This document shows, one piece after another, positions 51,191 to 62,963 of a stretch of DNA of 64,000 bases. The DNA is from an uncultured Caryophanales bacterium (lineage in GTDB: Bacteria > Bacillota_I > Bacilli_A > RFN20 > CAG-826), in the NCBI GenBank assembly GCA_946409515.1, contig CAMJWS010000001.1:251557-315556 (forward strand), read 5' to 3'. Under the pieces are notes generated by a model. That model was given only the letters and a program-made list of their open reading frames with translations, had not been told where the DNA came from and searched no databases. The position numbers were made by a program, and so were the translations under genes. Each line of letters opens with the position of its first letter. The stretch's first letter is position 1.

Positions 51191-53311
51191 TTATCCTTCT
51201 ACTTCAAGTTCTCCTTCTATGAAGACAAGATGAATGAATTCACCATCAATCATTGCTCTTAGACTAAAATGGCAGTTTGCGGTAACAAGGATGTTGTCTT
51301 CTTCACCTTCTGGTTGTAATGCTTTGAATAGCATATCAATGCCATCTATATCATGATAGCCATAGCCACCACGTTGGCCACATTCATGGTTAACAACGAT
51401 TTTGAACTTTTCACCTACTATCATGTGGACATCAGATAAAGTAAATTCATTTTCACCAGTTTTAGTGAATTCTGCACAATTGGTATCTACTTGCCAGTTA
51501 TTAAATGAGCCGACCATGGAGACAGCATTAACTATAAATACATCTGGTGCATCTTGAGTGCTAATGGTAAGAACTAGACATCCACTTTCAATGGCAGCAT
51601 TGTTAATACTGATAGTGACTATTTTTGTATTAACTTTTTTCTTATATTCTCTATAGCCAAATATTTCAGTGACTTCAAAACCGTTCTTTAATAGTTTGGT
51701 TCTATAGTTTTTTTCTTCGTTACCATCAGTATTTAGGATTTCTAACTTATATGGTTCTTTATCAAAGACACATCCTGGACCAAATGTAATTCTTTCTCCT
51801 TCATATTCAGGAACACCTATATCTTTAAGTGCTTGTGGGAATTCTGGCTTTGTATAGCTTGATGGGAAGTCACCAGCGTAATAGAAATTCATTGCCCCAC
51901 CAAGATTATCACCATCCACGAATAAGATAGTTAAATCTCTATCTTGGAAACTACCTCTTTGTATCACATCATATAAGGTATCATCTAGATGTGCTTCAGT
52001 AGAGTATTCACCTCGTTGTGATTTAACATAATATCTTAATGCTCTTAAATCAGTGACTTCAGATAATAGACCACCATCTGAATCAATGTAATATAGATGT
52101 ACCACTACCTTTTCACCAAAGTTATCAACAAAGCCATTGAATAATTGACTAATTGTTGTAGAACCAGGAACTTGATAGTTATCTGCTCCTCCTGATAAGT
52201 CACCATTCATCGCTCTAATAGCTGCTGGTTGTTTTTCTATCTCGCCATGATCGCCCTCTTCTTTACAAACTAGGTCATAGATAATATCTTCTTTAGCGAT
52301 TTTATTGAATTCTTGATAGCAGGTTTTGATAACACTATTTTGTGTACCTTGTTTGTTATAGAATCTATCAGCGTCTATCTCACTAGCGTTTAATCCTAAG
52401 TCAGTAAATAATGCTTCGCCTATGGCTTTAGCTTCATCACCTTGTGCTCTAGTTCTTTTATTCTTATGGAAGACACCACCTTTATACCATGAGCAAGCAT
52501 CTACCTTATATTCACATCCTTCTTCAACATATGAATTGAAGTTAGTATGTGTCGAGTCTTTAACTAATCTATGGTCATTGTCCATACAGAACTTTCTCCA
52601 TTCATTGATGGAGTTATTCTTAACATCGACATAGTCATATTCATATGTATATCTACCATAGAATGATAATTCTCTTTCATCGTTTTCAGTGACCATGGTC
52701 ATTTGATAATTAGGAGAATTATTTGCCATATCATAATCTAACTCAATAGCGACATACCATTTTGTATTGTATTCTTCATTACCTTTAGTAAGTTTGATAT
52801 CAAACGATATATCCGCGGTGATTAAGTCATTATCATCGATGTTGATATCCATTCCTAAAGTAAAGGTGTAGTTATACTTATATTGCTCACCTTCTTTTTT
52901 AAAACCTGTCTCAACATCTAAATACATTTCACCATTGATAGTGTCGTAGTATTTATTACCAAATTCATAACCACTTCCAACTTTTTCCAATACTTTCTTT
53001 AGATATTGGAACTGCACCATTGGGGGTTGATTGTATTCTACTTCTTCCAAGAAATTATCTCGTATATCATCATCTCTAAAGTAGCTATAGATGGTATCTA
53101 AACCATGAGATGTATTAGATCCTCCTAGTTTAGCTTTAGGCAACAAGATTGCGGCTTTGGCCGCTTTCTTGCTCTTAAACGATTTCTCCACACCATTAAA
53201 GGCAAATTTAACTTTCTCATATTGGGTGGTTGGTAGTTTAGGACTACACCCAATAAGAGAGATACCTAAAATACCCACGAGTGTGGTAGCAAAAAAATGT
53301 ATCTTCTTCAT
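51191..53311 (-). CDS. Large lipoprotein with C-terminal carbohydrate-binding-like domain
   Basis: A 706-residue lipoprotein (lipobox LIGC) starting MKKIHFF. The N-terminal and middle parts, rich in Asp, Asn and Tyr, have no recognised family. Near the C terminus VGSFNNW...GENEFTLSDV...GEKFKIVVN resembles the starch-binding CBM20/48 beta-sandwich pattern. GGGAG precedes the start. It lies between the defence operon and the membrane-protein operon and is not clearly tied to either. Confidence 0.6.
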   Translation of the reverse strand: MKKIHFFATTLVGILGISLIGCSPKLPTTQYEKVKFAFNGVEKSFKSKKAAKAAILLPKAKLGGSNTSHGLDTIYSYFRDDDIRDNFLEEVEYNQPPMVQFQYLKKVLEKVGSGYEFGNKYYDTINGEMYLDVETGFKKEGEQYKYNYTFTLGMDINIDDNDLITADISFDIKLTKGNEEYNTKWYVAIELDYDMANNSPNYQMTMVTENDERELSFYGRYTYEYDYVDVKNNSINEWRKFCMDNDHRLVKDSTHTNFNSYVEEGCEYKVDACSWYKGGVFHKNKRTRAQGDEAKAIGEALFTDLGLNASEIDADRFYNKQGTQNSVIKTCYQEFNKIAKEDIIYDLVCKEEGDHGEIEKQPAAIRAMNGDLSGGADNYQVPGSTTISQLFNGFVDNFGEKVVVHLYYIDSDGGLLSEVTDLRALRYYVKSQRGEYSTEAHLDDTLYDVIQRGSFQDRDLTILFVDGDNLGGAMNFYYAGDFPSSYTKPEFPQALKDIGVPEYEGERITFGPGCVFDKEPYKLEILNTDGNEEKNYRTKLLKNGFEVTEIFGYREYKKKVNTKIVTISINNAAIESGCLVLTISTQDAPDVFIVNAVSMVGSFNNWQVDTNCAEFTKTGENEFTLSDVHMIVGEKFKIVVNHECGQRGGYGYHDIDGIDMLFKALQPEGEEDNILVTANCHFSLRAMIDGEFIHLVFIEGELEVEG

Positions 53312-53440
53312 ATAATTAAAAAGTCTCCCTTGAACCAAATAAATATATTGATTCTAATTATTCGTATATGATGGTTACAGCCTAATCATAGCACGTATTT
53401 AAAAAATAGATAGAGGAATATGCATTAAAAGCTAATATTG

Positions 53441-54406
53441 TTAACTATCTAAAGTGACAAACCAAGGTCTAGGTTTTTTTGCATTGGTGTTATCAAAATC
53501 ATACACAAGAATTGGCTTCATTTCATTTGTGCGTATTGATCGACCAATCGAGAGGCAAAGAGATGAGGAGCCACAAATCATCAAATGTATTTTAGAATAA
53601 TCTTTAGAACATTCTCTTAGCGTTTCGCTAACTGTGCTTGTAAGAGCATTGAGTTTGTTGATGGTGTTTATTGATGATCTCCCTAAACAATTAGTGCTAA
53701 CGCTTATACAATCTAGTCTTTGTAAATTTTCTGGCATTGAATTGTAATTAAAGTTAGTAGACGATTCAACACAAACAACAACCTCGTTTGTTTTGCTTTC
53801 CTCGCATTTAAGTATCTTTTTTACTACTTTAAAGTGACTAAATTTATGGAACGATGAAAAGCGCAGTTTTTTAACTTTTGAACTATTTCCTTTTATGAAA
53901 TTGTGGAAATAAACAACCTTATTGCATTGATTCAAAATAGTGCCAAGCTGTACAATATATGGAATATAATCAGCCCCAAGATATTTAATTTTCTTGATGC
54001 GTTCAATATTATTGATTGCAAATCGCATTTCAATTACCTTTTGTAGAATATCCTTGCTGTCTTCGCTATGTTTATTTCTCTTTACAGAACTGCCCATATC
54101 TTCTGTAACTGCAATATCGATTTTTGCTAAAACTGGAAAATCCATTTTGCGACCAGCACCTATAACATTTTCTGAAATCTGCCTTATAGCAACTGTTTTT
54201 CTAAACAATTTCCACACTCTAAAAGCTATCAAGGAGGTTGTGACGGCAATGATAATGATTCCAATTAAAATGAACAAATAGTGAGGAATTATCTTATATA
54301 GTTCCTCAAAATTTATGTTCGTGTTAAACAATGGTAAAAGATTTGGAGCAAATACTATTACAAAGCCTAACGCAAGTAAGATAATCAATGATAAAACATC
54401 CATCAT
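53441..54406 (-). CDS. CBASS effector: two-helix SAVED protein (Cap14-like)
   Basis: A 321-residue protein. Two membrane helices (about 4-24 and 42-66) are followed by a SAVED domain (about 90-321) whose C-terminal segment KIHLMICGSSSLCLSIG then ILVYDFDN is the usual cyclic-oligonucleotide-binding core. Membrane-anchored SAVED proteins are CBASS effectors that oligomerise and open the membrane when their signal molecule binds. Its ATG overlaps the E2-like stop (ATGA), with AGGAGG before it. Last gene of the five-gene operon. Confidence 0.82.
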   Translation of the reverse strand: MMDVLSLIILLALGFVIVFAPNLLPLFNTNINFEELYKIIPHYLFILIGIIIIAVTTSLIAFRVWKLFRKTVAIRQISENVIGAGRKMDFPVLAKIDIAVTEDMGSSVKRNKHSEDSKDILQKVIEMRFAINNIERIKKIKYLGADYIPYIVQLGTILNQCNKVVYFHNFIKGNSSKVKKLRFSSFHKFSHFKVVKKILKCEESKTNEVVVCVESSTNFNYNSMPENLQRLDCISVSTNCLGRSSINTINKLNALTSTVSETLRECSKDYSKIHLMICGSSSLCLSIGRSIRTNEMKPILVYDFDNTNAKKPRPWFVTLDS

Positions 54407-54825
54407 TCATTTGTCCTCCTCTTAAAACTATGCCCTCCTCCACACCATTTACCTGTAATTTTCCAAACTTCATAATAATACAGCCATTCAGAAATCCAAG
54501 GTACAACAACAGAATAATCATCAGAACTATCTATTTCCTTTGGCAAGTATAAGCATATCCTGCCATCTTTTAGCGAATACATATGTGGAACGTTTTTATT
54601 CTCTTTATTTTCTTTGGCTAAATTAGGTTTTAAAACTAATACATCTAGTTTTTTACTACCAGTTAATTTAATCTGTGCTAGATATGTTCTAGATTGCTCT
54701 GTAGGTTTAATCCTCAAATTAACAAATAGCGGTTGTTTAAAAGAATGAGATTCGACCAAATCAGGAAATTTACTAACAATTCTAAATATTTGTAGAGATG
54801 GATTATTCCCTTTATTCTTTATCAT
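54403..54825 (-). CDS. Standalone CBASS E2-like protein
   Basis: A 140-residue protein. The E2-CBASS pattern is clear near the C terminus: HMYSLKDGRICLYLP with Cys91 as the likely thioester Cys, then VVPWISEWLYYYEVW and GKWCGGGHSF. In CBASS with E2 but no E1, such proteins act on the CD-NTase C terminus. No E1 or deconjugase gene is present here. It overlaps the CD-NTase gene by 14 bp; upstream in-frame starts were rejected because they lie deep inside that gene. Confidence 0.8.
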   Translation of the reverse strand: MIKNKGNNPSLQIFRIVSKFPDLVESHSFKQPLFVNLRIKPTEQSRTYLAQIKLTGSKKLDVLVLKPNLAKENKENKNVPHMYSLKDGRICLYLPKEIDSSDDYSVVVPWISEWLYYYEVWKITGKWCGGGHSFKRRTNE

Positions 54826-55957
54826 ATTTTCTACCAAAGAAAGTGTGTGCTGTAACAGCAACACCGGCAACTGAATTTAGCATTCCAGTCTTTTTGTCCA
54901 TTTTCAGTTTGCCTGCTTCGCGTTCGCTCTTTGCTAATTCGCCAAAATATTTGTAGACATTTTCAACGTTTTCCTTACCAAAAATTGCTTTAGCCTTATT
55001 TGCAAAGCCAATAGTATCCAATGTATTTAGTTCTTTAACATCCTTAATCAATTGCGCATGCCATTGAAAAAAATAATGTGGCTTGAGAGCATCGTTATTC
55101 CACTTATCAGCAAAATTTTCTTTGGTGTTGACTGGGTTTATTATTGCATATTTGCCATTATTGTCCGTTGAGACATACTTATTCATACTATTTACAACGT
55201 TTAACAGGCCAACGATTAAATCTGTCTCACCAAAGTATGCTCTTGCAGCAAGGGTAGTAATAATAATAGAAATTGGTTTGTATTTTTCAGCTGAACTACC
55301 AAGACTTCCAAAATACACATCCCTATGTCTCTTGATTAATTGAACAATTTTTTGAAGAGTAGTCTTTCTAGGATATTCTTTTATTTTTTCCAAAGAGAAT
55401 AATCTCTTACTTTCTTTCATAAAAGAATTACTCTTGTCCAAAAACCAAGCAAGATAACCTTTTGGATTTGTATAGATCTCAGTGAAATTAAAGCCATCGT
55501 CAGTGTGGGTCGCAATGACAGAATCAATTTCTTTATATGTCGCTGGATTCAAATCCGGTTTGCATGGAAGAATATCCATATGATAGTCTTTGTAATTCAA
55601 AGTCCAGCACCTTTTCCCACCGTTCGGTAACTTTTCGATTTTGTTCTTATATCTATCACTATTCTTAAGGGCGTTGCCTATGATGTGTTTTAATGTTCTT
55701 AAATCAATACTACTATTTTTCAAAAAAGCAACCATATCAACATCATAATCAGATTTAGAAAGTGGTTTAACTGTGGTGCCTAAAGCGATAGAGCCTTGAG
55801 GAAAAACACTTATATCGCCATATTGCGTTATATTCTTATCGTTATTCAAAAGTGCTCCCACCGCTTCATATGATGTGATGACACTATCGAGTTCCGTATC
55901 GTTTAGATTCAAATCGTTAGCAACTTTTTCAAGCACATTATTCTTGTTTAATTCCAT
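54812..55957 (-). CDS. CBASS CD-NTase (cGAS/DncV-like nucleotidyltransferase)
   Basis: A 381-residue cyclic-oligonucleotide synthase. The pol-beta core is complete: GS loop in PQGSIALGTTVKP (Gly55-Ser56), metal residues Asp72 and Asp74 in DYDVDMVAFL, and third Asp128 in YHMDILP. An all-helical C-terminal half follows. It should make the second messenger read by the SAVED effector. The C terminus ends GRKYDKE and not in Gly, so E2 attachment of a C-terminal Gly would need trimming. Preceded by AAGGAGG, 15 bp after the TOPRIM gene. Confidence 0.88.
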   Translation of the reverse strand: MELNKNNVLEKVANDLNLNDTELDSVITSYEAVGALLNNDKNITQYGDISVFPQGSIALGTTVKPLSKSDYDVDMVAFLKNSSIDLRTLKHIIGNALKNSDRYKNKIEKLPNGGKRCWTLNYKDYHMDILPCKPDLNPATYKEIDSVIATHTDDGFNFTEIYTNPKGYLAWFLDKSNSFMKESKRLFSLEKIKEYPRKTTLQKIVQLIKRHRDVYFGSLGSSAEKYKPISIIITTLAARAYFGETDLIVGLLNVVNSMNKYVSTDNNGKYAIINPVNTKENFADKWNNDALKPHYFFQWHAQLIKDVKELNTLDTIGFANKAKAIFGKENVENVYKYFGELAKSEREAGKLKMDKKTGMLNSVAGVAVTAHTFFGRKYDKE

Positions 55958-55972
55958 GGTTTTTCCTCCTTA

Positions 55973-56497
55973 TTATTTTTTGATAGTCAAATGTCTAAAG
56001 CCTTGAGCAAAAGATGAGAATGGTTCGCTCGGAATTCTACTCCACATTTTATTTATTTGAAATCCGACACTTTTTAATTTTGGAACTATATCCCTATGTT
56101 TGATGAATTTCTTTTTGAACTCTTCCCTTCCTTTTGTCCCTAATAATTCGCCTATGTTCACCAAACGCTCGCAGGCGAATACTAATTCATCTTCTAAGGA
56201 AGATACAGATTGAACGAAGATAATATCCTCTTCATTAAGCGAAGAATTGTTCATGATAGTTTCAATGTTATCCTCTAAAAGATCGATTTTCTTAATGTCT
56301 GTATCAAAGACAAAAACTACTTTTGTACCCTTTTTAATTGTCCTTGCTTTGGTTGGGCTAATTTTTTGATAAAGTACATTTAGTATTTCAATTTTACCTG
56401 GGCAAATACCATAGGAGGCATCTTCTGCATGCATTAAGGCCTTGAGCAAGACCATTTCACATTCCCCTTCCACAAAATAATGATATAAGCCCGCCAT
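55973..56497 (-). CDS. Small TOPRIM-like protein paired with the ATPase
   Basis: A 174-residue protein. FVEGECE (Glu10) and VFVFDTDI (Asp65, Asp67) match the TOPRIM metal site of OLD-, RloB- and AriB-type nucleases; SLEDELVFACERL could supply the third acidic position. It starts 3 bp after the ATPase stop. ATPase plus TOPRIM partners form known abortive defence systems (PARIS AriA/AriB, RloA/RloB, split OLD), but this one is shorter than AriB and I cannot choose among them. Confidence 0.68.
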   Translation of the reverse strand: MAGLYHYFVEGECEMVLLKALMHAEDASYGICPGKIEILNVLYQKISPTKARTIKKGTKVVFVFDTDIKKIDLLEDNIETIMNNSSLNEEDIIFVQSVSSLEDELVFACERLVNIGELLGTKGREEFKKKFIKHRDIVPKLKSVGFQINKMWSRIPSEPFSSFAQGFRHLTIKK

Positions 56498-56500
56498 AGA

Positions 56501-57619
56501 TTATTTGTCCCCTAATTCTAAGATTAAATTGGTACTTGGAGCGACATCAAAAAAGTCATTATCATATAGATTTTTAATATTGACATTATTTCTTTTTTCT
56601 AACGTACCAGCATTAATCATTTGAATGTTTATATTGCCTTCTTCATCGCTTACTTTTTTCAAAAAGTTATAAGAGTGATTTGGGAATGGCAATGATAAAA
56701 TCTCTGTATCGTGTGTAGTGAAGAACAACTGTTCCCCATCGTCCAATAAGTTAACCATTGTGGCTAAGCATGCAATTTCTAAGTCATGACTGACGTATGA
56801 AAATTGTTCATCAACAAAATAGAAGCCGTTCTTATGCTTTTTAATGGCGTAGATAATGCCAGCTATATTGACAGCATATTTGCTGCCTGAAGATAGCATT
56901 TTTATTTCGCTTAACTTATCACCGTGTGTAATAGGAATCGATTTTAAACCATTTTTAAAGCTAACAATATAAGAATTGTCGATTTCTTTAGAAGGAGTAA
57001 CAGATAAAACTGAGTCATCAAAGGTTTTTAAAACTCTTTCTAAAACGTTTGAAAACTCCTTGCGTTCATTTTTCTCATACGCGCAGGAAATAACATCAAA
57101 GCCAGATTCAATAGAAGGGAATAGAAAATTCCACCCGCTAGTGATTACATGCTCTAAGACTTTGATATAGTTTTCAAAGCCTTTATCACTGTCATCTAAT
57201 CTATCAACAACAGTTTCATATGAATCGTTACCATTCAAAAATTTTTCTTGGTATTTGACCAACACTTCGTTAGTCGGAGAAACTATTTTGATTTCTAGTC
57301 TAAAAAATAAACCCTCAGGATAAACACAATCCATCAAGACATATGCACTTTTATTGGCGTTTGATACCATATCAATTATGGTTTTGGCCTCTTTGTTTAA
57401 AAGGAATAAAAAAACTTTCCAAATAGCTTTGCCAAGTGATGTTTTGCCAGAAGCGTTAGAACCAACTATAACGTTCAGCTTGCGATATCTAATGTTTGGA
57501 AAATTGTTAAGATATTCACTATCCAGCGTTGGTTTGACTAATTTTTTTGGATAAGAAAAATCTGCTTCAAAATTGTTAAAGCATAGAATGTTATCAAATT
57601 TTACTTTCAAAACAGCCAT
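56501..57619 (-). CDS. ABC/SMC-type defence ATPase (AAA_15/21-like), first gene of the CBASS operon
   Basis: A 372-residue ATPase. Walker A GSNASGKTS (residues 53-61), an ABC-like signature LSSGSKYAV, Walker B with DE in YFVDEQFS, and the H-loop FFTTHDTEIL are ordered as in OLD/RloA/AriA proteins. It probably senses phage or damage and drives its TOPRIM partner. The ATG at 57619 has GGAG 7 nt upstream; an in-frame ATG four codons earlier has none. Gap to the TOPRIM gene is 3 bp. Confidence 0.82.
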   Translation of the reverse strand: MAVLKVKFDNILCFNNFEADFSYPKKLVKPTLDSEYLNNFPNIRYRKLNVIVGSNASGKTSLGKAIWKVFLFLLNKEAKTIIDMVSNANKSAYVLMDCVYPEGLFFRLEIKIVSPTNEVLVKYQEKFLNGNDSYETVVDRLDDSDKGFENYIKVLEHVITSGWNFLFPSIESGFDVISCAYEKNERKEFSNVLERVLKTFDDSVLSVTPSKEIDNSYIVSFKNGLKSIPITHGDKLSEIKMLSSGSKYAVNIAGIIYAIKKHKNGFYFVDEQFSYVSHDLEIACLATMVNLLDDGEQLFFTTHDTEILSLPFPNHSYNFLKKVSDEEGNINIQMINAGTLEKRNNVNIKNLYDNDFFDVAPSTNLILELGDK

Positions 57620-57634
57620 ATATATCTCCATTTA

Positions 57635-57651
57635 GTTCAAGATTTTTGAAC
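57635..57651. promoter_or_regulatory. Palindrome 1 at the defence-operon start site
   Basis: GTTCAA-N5-TTGAAC, perfect. It begins at the expected transcription start, just downstream of the -10 box. Preceded on the minus strand by ATTT, as in palindrome 2. Confidence 0.7.
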
Positions 57652-57657
57652 AAATAT

Positions 57658-57687
57658 ATTCTAATAGTATTCATACACTCGTGTCAA
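57658..57687 (-). promoter_or_regulatory. Promoter of the ATPase-TOPRIM-CBASS operon
   Basis: Perfect TTGACA (57687-57682) and TAGAAT (57663-57658) with an 18-bp spacer; expected start near 57651, inside palindrome 1. Confidence 0.75.
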
Positions 57688-57708
57688 TAAGTTCATTATG
57701 TATAATTG

Positions 57709-57726
57709 GTTCAAACGATCTTGAAC
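57709..57726. promoter_or_regulatory. Palindrome 2 upstream of the defence-operon promoter
   Basis: GTTCAA-N6-TTGAAC, perfect, 21 bp upstream of the -35. Same arms and same flanking ATTT as palindrome 1; the centres are about 74 bp apart (about 7 helical turns). Confidence 0.7.
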
Positions 57727-57834
57727 AAATTATGTTTCATCAAAGTGCATTGCTATTTGCTGTCTTTAATCTTTTTTAGACTTTCATTATAGCAAGTAAC
57801 AAAAATAAACGAATATCTACTTTAACCAAAAATT

Positions 57835-59781
57835 CTATTGTTTTGTGTATGGTAGCTCTTTTTTAAATTTTCTCAAATAGATTGATTGCAATTTGGAAAA
57901 AGATTGAAAAGAAATCAATTTGACATAGTTGATAATTCCGATTACTTTTTCTTCGTTTTTTTCTAAATCTTTCTCATATCTAGCTATAGTTTCTACATAC
58001 TCTTCAAGATACTTTTTGCTGATTGTAAGAATAGAACCATCCTTTTTGTAAACGATGTTAATACCGACATAGTGAATCGAGTCTCCCTCATTATTGAATC
58101 TAACAACGGCCTTCTTTTTCTGATTGACCGTTAAGCCTTTTTCCAGCAAAAGAGAAATTAGCTTTTCCAGCTCATTATCAAATGAATGCTTTGAAGATCT
58201 GTTGGATATTAATATGTCATCAGCGTACCTCGTGTAGACATCATTTTTACAATATTTTGAAAATTCAAAATCTAGAGAATTCATATAAATATCAGACAAT
58301 ATTGGAGACGTTACAAGGCCTAACGGAAGGTGCGAAGAATAAGCACATATGTCTATAAAAGGCTTTAGGTAAATTGAATGCGTTCTTAAAGAAATGTTCT
58401 TTATAGCTTTTGCTTTCAATTCTTTGTTAATTCGTTCTCTCAAAGCAACCACTAATTTTCCTTTATTAATCGAATTAAAGAATGAATGGATATCTAGTTT
58501 AATAAAACTCTTACTATTAATGTGCTTTAATATGCAATCTTTGATTGATGTGTCGTTTTTATAAGCAAACGAACATTCATGTGGTGGGAAGAAATAATAT
58601 AGTCTACTCGCCATTTGTTCGTGCATTTTCCTTAGTTCCCTGCCGTTTCGATTGTTCTTATAAGTAATAATTTGCCTTTTCTTTCCAGAAGTAACAATGA
58701 TTCTTTTCTCTAGAAAATCGTTTCTGTTTTTATAAAATCTCTTGATGATGCTCAGTTGATAGTTCTTGATAGAAAACAACTGATCAGTAACGTTAATTTG
58801 TCTAAGGCTTTTAAAGTCTGGGCGATATAGTCTCCCAGTTCTAATATTCTTATCTCCTTCAGATATAGAAATCTTATATAAAATACAGATAATGTGCTTG
58901 AACACTAGTTCTGCATCCATACCATCATTTCCGAAAAATAGATTGCACTTTGGTCTCTTTAAAATGAACTCGATAGAATCAGGACAATGTGGACTTGTGA
59001 TGTACAAATCAACGATATTGTTTTTAAAACGTTCAAATGCTTCCATAAAGTTCTCATGTTGCACAACATCATCAATGTATTTTTTGCTTAGAAGATTAAT
59101 TGCTAAATAGAAAGCTAATTTTATGCCAAGATAAAAATTAATTTCGTTATGCATTTTTAGAAAAGATATTTCATTAGCCTTTCTTTTGCTAGTGGCAACA
59201 AAAGGAACGATAGCTCCGTCTTTTAATCTTTCATATAGATCTTCGAAATCTTTATCAATTACTTTTTTAACTTCGTCTGGTATTACGTTGTTTTTGAAAT
59301 GAAGATATTTCTTTTCATCTTTTATAGGATAATACTCATGGATTTTACTTTTTGAGTTAGTTGAAATGCTCTTCTTGACATATTCTCCTACATAGTTATT
59401 TTCATATTTTTTTCTGTCTTCCAAGAACACATTTATTTGATTATCCGCTCTAAATGTGTCAAACAATCCCAATTCATAGCTTGTTGACATTGTATCCAAG
59501 AATATATAAGTGCGGTAAGCAACTTCCGCCACTATTTCTTCCATAGTTTTTAAACTCAACGAGTATCCATTAATAAAATCATCATCAAAAATATTGTCAA
59601 CAATAATTGGCACAAGACGGAAAACGTTTCTCTCTCTTTTTCTAGTTCCCTTTGGACTTTTATCTTTAATGTAATCAGCTGTAAGCTTTCTTCTGTCAAA
59701 TGGATTGTCTTTATCAAAGGCCGGTCCACATAGGAAAACTAAAGGTCTATTAATAATGAGTTTATTCTCTTTATTGTTCAT
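57835..59781 (-). CDS. Nucleoside-deoxyribosyltransferase-like domain fused to a reverse transcriptase (retron-type)
   Basis: A 648-residue fusion. Residues about 12-125 have a nucleoside-deoxyribosyltransferase-like fold: PLVFLCGPAFD at the front and STSYELGLFD (Glu103 as likely catalytic residue) before a VFLED strand. About 150-340 is helical and unknown. About 370-600 is a reverse transcriptase: KLDIHSFFNSI (Asp430), LPLGLVTSPILS, TRYADDILIS (YADD 519-522) and NQKKK...YVGINI, the last in place of the retron VTG motif. The msr-msd-like RNA directly upstream makes retron the best assignment. NDT-like proteins are known retron effectors as separate genes. No Shine-Dalgarno precedes the ATG. 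Confidence 0.8.
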   Translation of the reverse strand: MNNKENKLIINRPLVFLCGPAFDKDNPFDRRKLTADYIKDKSPKGTRKRERNVFRLVPIIVDNIFDDDFINGYSLSLKTMEEIVAEVAYRTYIFLDTMSTSYELGLFDTFRADNQINVFLEDRKKYENNYVGEYVKKSISTNSKSKIHEYYPIKDEKKYLHFKNNVIPDEVKKVIDKDFEDLYERLKDGAIVPFVATSKRKANEISFLKMHNEINFYLGIKLAFYLAINLLSKKYIDDVVQHENFMEAFERFKNNIVDLYITSPHCPDSIEFILKRPKCNLFFGNDGMDAELVFKHIICILYKISISEGDKNIRTGRLYRPDFKSLRQINVTDQLFSIKNYQLSIIKRFYKNRNDFLEKRIIVTSGKKRQIITYKNNRNGRELRKMHEQMASRLYYFFPPHECSFAYKNDTSIKDCILKHINSKSFIKLDIHSFFNSINKGKLVVALRERINKELKAKAIKNISLRTHSIYLKPFIDICAYSSHLPLGLVTSPILSDIYMNSLDFEFSKYCKNDVYTRYADDILISNRSSKHSFDNELEKLISLLLEKGLTVNQKKKAVVRFNNEGDSIHYVGINIVYKKDGSILTISKKYLEEYVETIARYEKDLEKNEEKVIGIINYVKLISFQSFSKLQSIYLRKFKKELPYTKQ

Positions 59782-59790
59782 AAAACAGGA

Positions 59791-60049
59791 GGGGTTACTT
59801 TTATATGTTTATTACAACGATACATACTAATCCTTAATTCGGTGAACTTAGGTAGTTCATGCCGAACATGGACATTAATAATTTATAACAAACAGATATG
59901 GATTATTGATGTCAATATTTGGAATGAAAAGTCATTTCAAAAACTAATACACAGTTTTCATATAACACAGCATTAACGCCCATATAAAACATCATTGGCC
60001 ACAAGTGGTAGTTTCCATATTATCCGTATCCACGAACTAAACTAACCCC
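59791..60049 (-). ncRNA. Retron-like msr-msd RNA
   Basis: A 259-nt leader ending 9 nt before the RT start. Its ends are inverted repeats: a1 GGGGTTA (60049-60043) and a2 TAACCCC (59797-59791); past one mismatch, three more bases pair. The base after a1 is G, as for the branching guanosine. Inside are GTTTTATAT...TATATGAAAAC (59990-59954), a 12-bp stem with one mismatch (59913-59902 with 59882-59871) and a hairpin TTCGG...CCGAA containing GAAC/GTTC (59866-59838). TATAAT ends 6 nt before a1. Lengths and order fit retron RNA. Confidence 0.7.
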
Positions 60050-60055
60050 AAAAAG

Positions 60056-60061
60056 ATTATA
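60056..60061 (-). promoter_or_regulatory. -10 box of the retron-like RNA
   Basis: TATAAT on the minus strand; the seventh base downstream is the first G of a1. The -35 region is A/T-rich and weak. Confidence 0.6.
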
Positions 60062-60113
60062 AGATATTGTTAGCAAAAATAAACTATAAATATTTATATA
60101 AAAACGTTCTTTT

Positions 60114-60143
60114 GAAAAAGCATGGCACCGGTTTCCCGATGCC
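60114..60143 (-). terminator. Terminator after ugd remnant 1
   Basis: GGCATCGG-GAAA-CCGGTGCC, an 8-bp stem (one G-U pair) with GNRA tetraloop, then ATGCTTTTTC on the minus strand. It separates the surface-polymer genes from the retron promoter. Confidence 0.85.
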
Positions 60144-60170
60144 AATTGTCTTCTAAATATATATCAGTAA

Positions 60171-60409
60171 TCAGTCTCTTCTAAATAAATCTCTTGTATA
60201 GACTTTGTTTCGAACATCATCTAAACAACCGTCGTATCTATTAGCGATAATTGCGTTAGATAATTTCTTAAATTCTTCTAAGTTATTAACTACTTTACTA
60301 CCAAAGAATTCTGAACCATCCTCTAATGTTGGTTCATAGATAATAACTTTAACACCTTTGGCTTTCTTTTTGGCGAGTGTTGCCCACATAGTAGCAATGC
60401 GAGCCACCC
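60171..60409 (-). pseudogene. ugd remnant 1: 3' end of UDP-glucose 6-dehydrogenase
   Basis: The 78 codons preserve the very C terminus of a UDP-glucose/nucleotide-sugar dehydrogenase: [24 protein letters not shown] and the end [11 protein letters not shown] whole Ugd has about 390-430 residues, so the 5' 80% is gone. Reading frame still open. It is followed by a strong terminator, which was probably that of the original gene cluster. Remnant 2 at 60986-61222 has the same endpoints. Confidence 0.82.
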
Positions 60410-60425
60410 ATTGTTTTAAAAATAA

Positions 60426-60983
60426 CTACTTATTCTCTGATGTATCTTGATAGTCTTTTTGGTAATTATCATATATTTCATCCCAAGAGGAATGCTTGTT
60501 ATTATTCTTCATCTTACCAACTGTTTCTAATTTAATACGTTTCCATTCTGTTTGAACGTATAAATCCATTTCTTTTATGAATTCTTTTCTTTTAGAAATA
60601 AGTTTTTCTTTATTAGTATCTTTACTAGAATTCATATAAGAAATAACACTATCTTTTAAAGATTCAGTAATATTAATTAAATCTCTATCACATTCAAAAA
60701 TTTGAGAATACTCAGATCTAATATCCGCGGTTACTTCCACTAATTCCTTCACAGTGGCTTTCTTATCTTCTTTATCTAAAGAATCAAGATATTCAATGCT
60801 AGATAGCTTAATCATCTTAGCCATAAGCGTCTTGGTCTTTTCTCTTCTACTCAATCTGGTCTTAGTAATAACACTAATGGAATTACTCTTTCTTTGAACA
60901 AAGGAATTAATAATAAAACCAATGACACCTAATAATAAGGTTACACATACTGCGATTAGAGAAATAACATCTTTCCATTCCAT
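60426..60983 (-). CDS. Single-helix membrane protein of unknown function
   Basis: A 185-residue protein. One N-terminal membrane helix (about 7-28) then a strongly charged helical, coiled-coil-like domain. No family recognised. It is flanked on both sides by copies of the same ugd 3' end and was probably brought in as a cassette. No convincing ribosome-binding site. Confidence 0.55.
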   Translation of the reverse strand: MEWKDVISLIAVCVTLLLGVIGFIINSFVQRKSNSISVITKTRLSRREKTKTLMAKMIKLSSIEYLDSLDKEDKKATVKELVEVTADIRSEYSQIFECDRDLINITESLKDSVISYMNSSKDTNKEKLISKRKEFIKEMDLYVQTEWKRIKLETVGKMKNNNKHSSWDEIYDNYQKDYQDTSENK

Positions 60984-60985
60984 AA

Positions 60986-61222
60986 CTAGTCTCTTCTAAA
61001 CAAATCTCTTGTATATACTTTGTTTTGAATATCATCTAAGCATCTATCGTTTCTATTAGCGAAATTGCGTTGGATAATCTCTTAAACTCTTCTAAGTTAT
61101 TAATTACTTTGCTGCCAAAGAATTCAGAACCATCTTCTAATGTTGATTCGTAGACAATAACTTTAACACCTTTGCTTTCTTTTCGGCGAGTGTTGCGCAC
61201 ACAGTAACAATGCGAGCCACCT
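60986..61222 (-). pseudogene. ugd remnant 2: degenerate second copy
   Basis: About 237 bp aligned along its whole length with remnant 1, from the terminal RRD-stop codons to the GGTGGCTCGC boundary. It carries single-base deletions (near 61066 and 61173), so the frame is broken. The 5' limit is the same in both copies, showing a shared breakpoint. Lies between the 185-residue gene and the phosphonate genes. Confidence 0.8.
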
Positions 61223-61223
61223 A

Positions 61224-62963
61224 TTATTTATTAATGCTACCATAGCATTTCCTTATATTAATTTTAAACGGAAAATTTTTAAGTCTTATAGGATTGACTG
61301 ACTCAATTAACTCGTTAATATCATTTTTTAAAAAAGATACATTCTTGCTTAATTCAAAATAATCGATGATTTCATTAAAAACTTTCTTTACATCCAAATC
61401 ACTGCCGAATTGAGTTTTGACTTTGCAATTTTCAAAAATCGAATTCATGCAAATAGCAACAGCATGTCCATGCGGAATACCATACAGGGATGTAATTTTA
61501 TAGCTCATAGCATGGGCTGCGGTTGTTTCAGAAATATTGATAGCTTTCCCAGAGTAATTAGCAGCCAATTGAATGTTCTTAATAGCATGTATATCACATT
61601 CCAGATAACCTTTGTAATTGTCTTCGAAGAGCTTTAAACCTTTAATTGCGTATTTTCTGCTAACAGGCGTAGCTTTTCTAGACCATAATGATTCAATACA
61701 CTGGCACAAAGCGTCCATCGCTGTACATTTCTTTTGATATTTGGGAACGCTAATAATAAGTTTTGGGCAAAGAATGACATAATCCGGAACATTGACAGGA
61801 TTAGCTATTGATTGTTTCTCGCCGTTTAAATATAACACAGCATGCTTAGTGGATTCACTACCAGTGCCACTTGTACTAGGTATACAAATATGTTTGATAT
61901 CGGAGTATTTGTAATTTTGTTTGAATGTTGGGGTATCGCTTTTTAAGTCGGCATTTAAAGAGAGTCTAATTACTTTGGCAACATCAATACAAGATCCACC
62001 ACCAATGGACACAATTGCATCACACTTGTTATCCTTGAATGATTTGAGACCATTCAACATTTCTTCATATTTCGGATTAGATGTGAATCCAGAAAACACA
62101 ACTGCATTTGGTAATTTCTTTTGAATATTCTTTGCCAAAAAAATATCAGCAACAATAAATGGTTTTATTGAGTTTAACTTGCTTAATTGAGTTTTCAGTG
62201 GAAAAAAATATTTAGAGGATGTTTTGATCTTCTGAGTTTTATAATCCCATTGTTCTATTTCTTTATTAACTCTAGCTAAATCATCTTTGTTATCTACTTC
62301 GTCAATAAAATGATTAGCATAACTGACTGGTCTAATCCTCAGCCCTTCGCTAACTTCGTTAAAGGCATTTTCTGCATAGACATTAAGGTTATTATTTTCA
62401 ACAAACCTTACAACATTATCTAGCCATACTTTAATAACTTCTTTTGATAATTTATAAAGTGGCTGGAAAGCAAAACAATCTTTGTCAAAGATGTTGATGC
62501 CTACTTCTCTAAGCTCATTATCCACTATTCTTCCTTTAAAATCCTTTTCAGGAAGAGATTTATATTTATTAATCAAGCAAGTGTTTGATTCTCTATTTTT
62601 TAACAATGATGGTATAAGTTTTCTATCAAAAACCAAATCACCATGCATCATTAAGATATCGTCATTTAAATATTCTCTTGCTTTGTACATAGAGTAAATA
62701 TAGTTCGATGCATCATATATCTCATTATGAGGAAATACAAAATGCATATTTCTATAGCAAGGCTTAGCACAAATGTCTTTTAGCATTTCAGGATATGGAC
62801 CAGTTGTAATAACGACTTCTGTAATACCAGCTTCTTGGAGAAGTCTTATTTGACGCTCAAAGATGGTCTCATCATTGTATAGATGGACCATGCTTTTAGG
62901 ACAATGGGCAGTTAACTCACCCATTCTTTTTCCAATGCCAGAATTAAATATAAGAGCTTTCAT
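61224..62963 (-). CDS. Nucleotidyltransferase fused to iron-dependent alcohol dehydrogenase (phosphonate pathway)
   Basis: A 579-residue fusion. Residues 1-235 are a LicC/IspD-like nucleotidyltransferase ([16 protein letters not shown], then HGDLVFD). Residues about 250-579 are an Fe-ADH ([47 protein letters not shown]). The gene starts 2 bp after phosphonopyruvate decarboxylase, so the dehydrogenase probably reduces phosphonoacetaldehyde to 2-hydroxyethylphosphonate and the transferase activates a phosphonate with CTP. The reaction is inferred from context. Confidence 0.82.

Follow-up and report, generated by a model that had tools for sequence, protein, structure and literature searches.

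Little is known about how defense systems that pair an ATPase with a TOPRIM protein are controlled, that is, how they are kept quiet and how they are switched on. Among the described systems of this kind, PARIS (AriA-AriB) encodes an ABC ATPase and a TOPRIM protein as two genes, AbiL (AbiLi-AbiLii) likewise places its ATPase gene first, and the Gabija and OLD nucleases carry ATPase and TOPRIM fused. Palindromic operators on defense operons have a precedent in RptR, where sites at the −10 repress the operon; that island differs from the locus described here in having a dedicated regulator and a 6-bp TAGCTA site (PMC12255303). Type II toxin-antitoxin modules offer another parallel: they too are two-gene operons with the possible neutralizer (here, the ATPase) encoded first and with a palindrome that lies on the promoter and is conserved with the module. 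They differ in the protein that binds, which is an HTH or RHH antitoxin there, whereas the candidate binder here is a Rad50-like ATPase. For PARIS, the passages of the literature searched describe no operator of the kind reported below, and we found no description of a GTTCAA or TTC-N9-GAA element in the literature searched.

In the window (the whole 64-kb stretch of DNA that was analyzed), an operon starts with genes for an ATPase and a separate TOPRIM protein and continues with a CBASS set in the order CD-NTase, E2, and SAVED effector (Table 1). The predicted structure of the ATPase (pLDDT of 89) is nearest to Rad50/SMC heads (Z score of 20.5 and RMSD of 3.6 over 277 residues for the best of the matches listed), many of which were solved with DNA, and shows no evident HTH domain. 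Its best PADLOC match, a distant one, is AbiLi (E value of 1.3e-19, residues 3 to 363), and the gene order is that of AbiL; the TOPRIM protein, however, has no AbiLii/RloB match in Pfam, PADLOC, or NCBIfam. AriA models match the window's ATPase only locally, and its similarity to PDB AriA is weak (E value of 1.4e-4 over 46 positions); AriA is absent from the 50 structural matches listed for the ATPase, which does not speak against kinship. In the TOPRIM protein, neither Pfam nor PADLOC gave a match to AriB/DUF4435 at an E value of 0.001. A search for PARIS in Bacilli gave two uninformative AriA-model matches. Since the structural score of the TOPRIM model (pLDDT of 91.9) is modest, with GajA and OLD TOPRIM domains as its nearest neighbors (Z score of 6.7 and RMSD of 4.5 over 145 residues), and no Pfam model matches the protein, its assignment also leans on the EGxxE (E10-G11-E14) and DxD (D65/D67) motifs, which are invariant across 16 sequences. 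The ATPase more likely starts at 57619, behind the GGAG at 57629 to 57626, than at 57631.

TABLE 1 Positions of the candidate control elements and genes of the operon within the window
Feature	Position	Strand	Remarks
O1, proximal operator (candidate)	57635..57651	-	GTTCAA-N5-TTGAAC, GTTCAAGATTTTTGAAC; starts at predicted transcription start
O2, distal dyad	57709..57726	.	GTTCAA-N6-TTGAAC, GTTCAAACGATCTTGAAC; 21 bp above -35
-35 hexamer TTGACA	57682..57687	-	Consensus match
-10 hexamer TAGAAT	57658..57663	-	Spacer to -35 of 18
Ribosome-binding site GGAG	57626..57629	-	6 nt before ATG at 57619; aligned starts of relatives
Rad50/SMC-head-like ABC ATPase, 372 aa	56501..57619	-	Proposed operator-binding component
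OLD-type TOPRIM protein, 174 aa	55973..56497	-	E10, G11, E14, D65, D67 invariant; proposed effector
CBASS CD-NTase (SMODS)	54812..55957	-	
CBASS E2-like protein	54403..54870	-	
CBASS effector	53441..54406	-	N-terminal hydrophobic segment(s) and SAVED domain

Two GTTCAA-N5/6-TTGAAC dyads accompany the predicted promoter of this operon. The initial annotation had placed both correctly at every coordinate and was likewise right that ATTT precedes each on the minus strand and that 21 bp separate O2 from the −35 below it; the distance between dyad centers, which it put at about 74 bp, measures 74.5 bp. The promoter that it called strong, TTGACA-18-TAGAAT (minus strand, 57687 to 57658), agrees with 11 of 12 consensus bases and outscores all promoter-like sites over 53000 to 61300, with promoters in the window and in relatives assigned by consensus only. 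The window was expected to hold 0.03 exact dyads rather than 2, a number that none of 100 shuffles reached, and O1 and O2 were the only matches to GTTCAA-N4-8-TTGAAC in the whole assembly (1,323,416 bases, 92% complete). The core of O1 is TTCA-N7-TGAA, and its wider arms are ATTTGTTC and GAACTAAAT.

We collected ATPase relatives from public genomes, viral contigs, phages, and plasmids and, leaving aside the upstream region of the window, searched 44 distinct ones over the 100 nt before the start codon. TTC-N9-GAA was present in 41 of the 44 regions, several of which are close relatives, so that the independent number is nearer 30, and a complementary fourth pair extended it in all 41. In shuffled regions, the core occurred 1.1 times (maximum, 5) and the core with the fourth pair 0.33 times (maximum, 4); spacings other than N9 gave 0 to 3 matches. 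Upstream regions of other genes contained the core in 12 of 388 cases and the extended form in 5. The three exceptions were L036, with TTCA..TGGA; L079, with a spacer one base longer, as in O2; and L090, with TTTG..TGAA, which adjoins a TOPRIM gene that has lost an internal segment. In the relatives examined, the exact motif outside open reading frames was almost confined to the ATPase gene, and other exact copies almost always lay inside genes; the motif is thus not scattered at random.

The element follows the cassette over considerable distances. The sampled ATPases extend down to about 26% identity to that of the window, and they come from Bacilli, human-gut phage, Acinetobacter phage Ab105-3phi, an Acinetobacter plasmid, and other prophages. 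In the phage, prophage, and plasmid cassettes, the ATPase and TOPRIM genes are the only ones in common. O1 pertains to these two genes rather than to the CBASS genes that follow. In the window, the CBASS genes are probably under the same putative operator, because they are codirectional with the TOPRIM gene and begin 15 bp after it. A second dyad, 61 to 76 bp upstream, occurs in only about 4 of the 44 relatives (L042, L112, L037, and, weakly, L077), and O2 may be an auxiliary operator that strengthens repression; looping between O1 and O2, an idea of the initial annotation, may also occur. In L112 (phage PV036423, human gut), the two-gene cassette sits between the portal and terminase genes; besides a dyad of its own, it has another 65 bp upstream.

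At the fourth position of the half-site, the relatives differ: most Bacilli have A, the Acinetobacter-like set has C, and two phage sequences, one of them from human gut, have G. Mapped onto the ATPase tree, these classes require 4 changes, compared with a possible minimum of 3 and a shuffled mean of 16.8. L046, a locus from Bacilli, has C at this position, and in the tree its ATPase falls, on a long branch, with the C-type prophage set. Because the fourth base follows the ATPase tree, the site tracks the cassette and not the host. This ATPase-linked specificity base suggests that the defense ATPase may read DNA sequence.

Short dyads are abundant in AT-rich promoters, and O1 could in principle be a chance inverted repeat in AT-rich DNA; 41 of 44 regions against about one expected, with the complementary fourth pair in every one, makes the probability of this negligible, and we rejected it. 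O2, for its part, may be such a repeat. A more serious alternative is that the dyad works in mRNA, as a 5′ leader hairpin of about 5 bp with a 7-nt loop. The TOPRIM protein would bind or cleave this hairpin, or the hairpin would affect ribosome access, so that control would be exerted on translation or mRNA stability. Most loci have the dyad beginning at the predicted +1, some 7 nt past the −10, where it would be transcribed; its 7-nt spacing is nearly fixed, the loop is A-rich on the coding strand, and in one prophage set the dyad overlaps the ribosome-binding site. The related nuclease AriB moreover cleaves an anticodon stem-loop (PMC12409363). Four loci (L036, L043, L046, and the degenerate L090), however, have the dyad on the upstream side of the −10, where it covers the −35 region; the −35 hexamer of L043 and L046 is formed by the right arm of the dyad. 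The dyad of L091 and L112 begins 3 nt downstream of the −10, so that its left arm should escape transcription. Provided that the consensus promoters hold, no hairpin could form in the transcripts of these loci. Among flanking pairs that are not standard, G-U is no more frequent than A-C (5 versus 7), and dyads are kept where the TOPRIM has been lost. A search for known RNA families over 53000 to 61300 returned nothing relevant. The positions of the dyad and the lack of a G-U preference favor a DNA operator, and we consider action through mRNA unlikely. One feature does count against a symmetric operator: the first four spacer positions of the 41 dyads are A, on the coding strand only, in 33 to 39 sites, an asymmetry that a symmetric dimer does not require.

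If the dyad acts as DNA, the protein that binds it could be a repressor encoded elsewhere in the host genome and occupying both dyads, as the initial annotation held. The geometry of the dyads fits ordinary HTH dimers, and the cassette contains no classical regulator gene; HTH, WYL, and LexA were not found among the island proteins scanned, in agreement with the annotation. A host repressor would nevertheless have no regulon, since the exact motif occurs only at this promoter in the assembly, and of 6 other, relaxed sites, 4 lie in open reading frames, 1 near a contig end, and 1 between genes. The intergenic site (L149, 1501 to 1518) is a lone GTTCA-N8-TGAAC upstream of a yebC-like gene and probably arose by chance. 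The motif class also tracks the ATPase tree, with the cassette found in Bacilli, gut phages, and Acinetobacter. Control by LexA was considered and rejected, as PF01726 was not found in the source assembly (92% complete); the half-sites of the Firmicutes LexA box (GAAC-N4-GTTC) are oriented opposite to those of O1 and O2. Control by a WYL protein (BrxR/CapW) was likewise set aside, with no adjacent HTH-WYL gene among the island proteins scanned. A host-encoded repressor thus appears quite improbable, and the annotation's claim of a repressor that must lie elsewhere is probably wrong. Across phyla, the dyad goes with the ATPase-TOPRIM cassette, which has no further gene in common, and the fourth base of the half-site agrees with the ATPase tree; most likely, therefore, the operon itself encodes the regulator.

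Within the cassette, loss of the TOPRIM gene points to the ATPase. An intact TOPRIM frame is missing in 12 of the 44 loci. Four loci (L050, L059, L062, and L074) have no recognizable TOPRIM but retain an open ATPase frame and the dyad, and three (L063, L068, and L034) retain ATPase and dyad with only a TOPRIM fragment. Several loci without the second gene thus keep the first gene and the putative operator, as in type II toxin-antitoxin modules. Because ATPase and dyad persist without TOPRIM, the binder would be the ATPase or a complex led by it. In L051, L057, L058, and L077, the TOPRIM frames are broken; the break falls at a run of A residues near codon 55 in L057 and L058. Such breaks may stem from errors of assembly, from decay, from phase variation, or from programmed frameshifting.

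We therefore consider it probable that O1 is the DNA operator of a mobile ATPase-TOPRIM cassette whose ATPase, alone or with TOPRIM, binds it as a dimer and represses its own promoter. The two TTC half-sites are separated by about one helical turn, and the ATPase, or its complex with TOPRIM, would occupy both as a dimer at the transcription start and so shut down its own promoter. Expression would rise once the complex has been consumed or changed, for example, in infection, and in the source genome, the CBASS behind the cassette would fall under the same control. The initial annotation held that repression keeps the operon off; the operator-type element at the operon start is borne out and probably serves repression, and repression itself we infer. 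The autorepressor account has against it that the ATPase model shows no evident HTH domain and that the DNA binding of Rad50-type heads is usually not sequence specific. It is a tentative and rather doubtful further proposal that this Rad50/SMC-head-like ATPase, lacking an HTH, is a sequence-specific autorepressor whose DNA-binding surface is the sensor, such that phage DNA or DNA mimics strip it from the operator, raising expression and freeing the TOPRIM nuclease.

A cis-element conserved across phyla, together with an ATPase-linked specificity base, makes autoregulation directly testable, and the dyad provides a sequence tag for finding ATPase-TOPRIM cassettes. Canonical AbiLi relatives (L115 to L144) had TTC-N9-GAA upstream in none of 30 cases. 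Other dyads, such as TGAGAA-N3-TTCTCA, occurred in 11 of 26 of them (P ≤ 0.05 versus shuffles). Operator-type control may be general among ATPase-TOPRIM systems.

Further features lie upstream of the operon. A reverse transcriptase akin to retron reverse transcriptases (57835 to 59781, minus strand; PADLOC RT_II-A) has a long N-terminal extension and an NCBIfam St85-like match below the cutoff. The adjacent 390-nt gap (59782 to 60170) contains inverted repeats and is a candidate retron RNA, with no Rfam match. Beyond it, a 244-bp direct repeat (60173 to 60416 and 60988 to 61229; 88.5% identical) flanks an open reading frame at 60426 to 60983. The repeat resembles the C-terminal end of UDP-glucose 6-dehydrogenase and is possibly the mark of an insertion or duplication beside the island.
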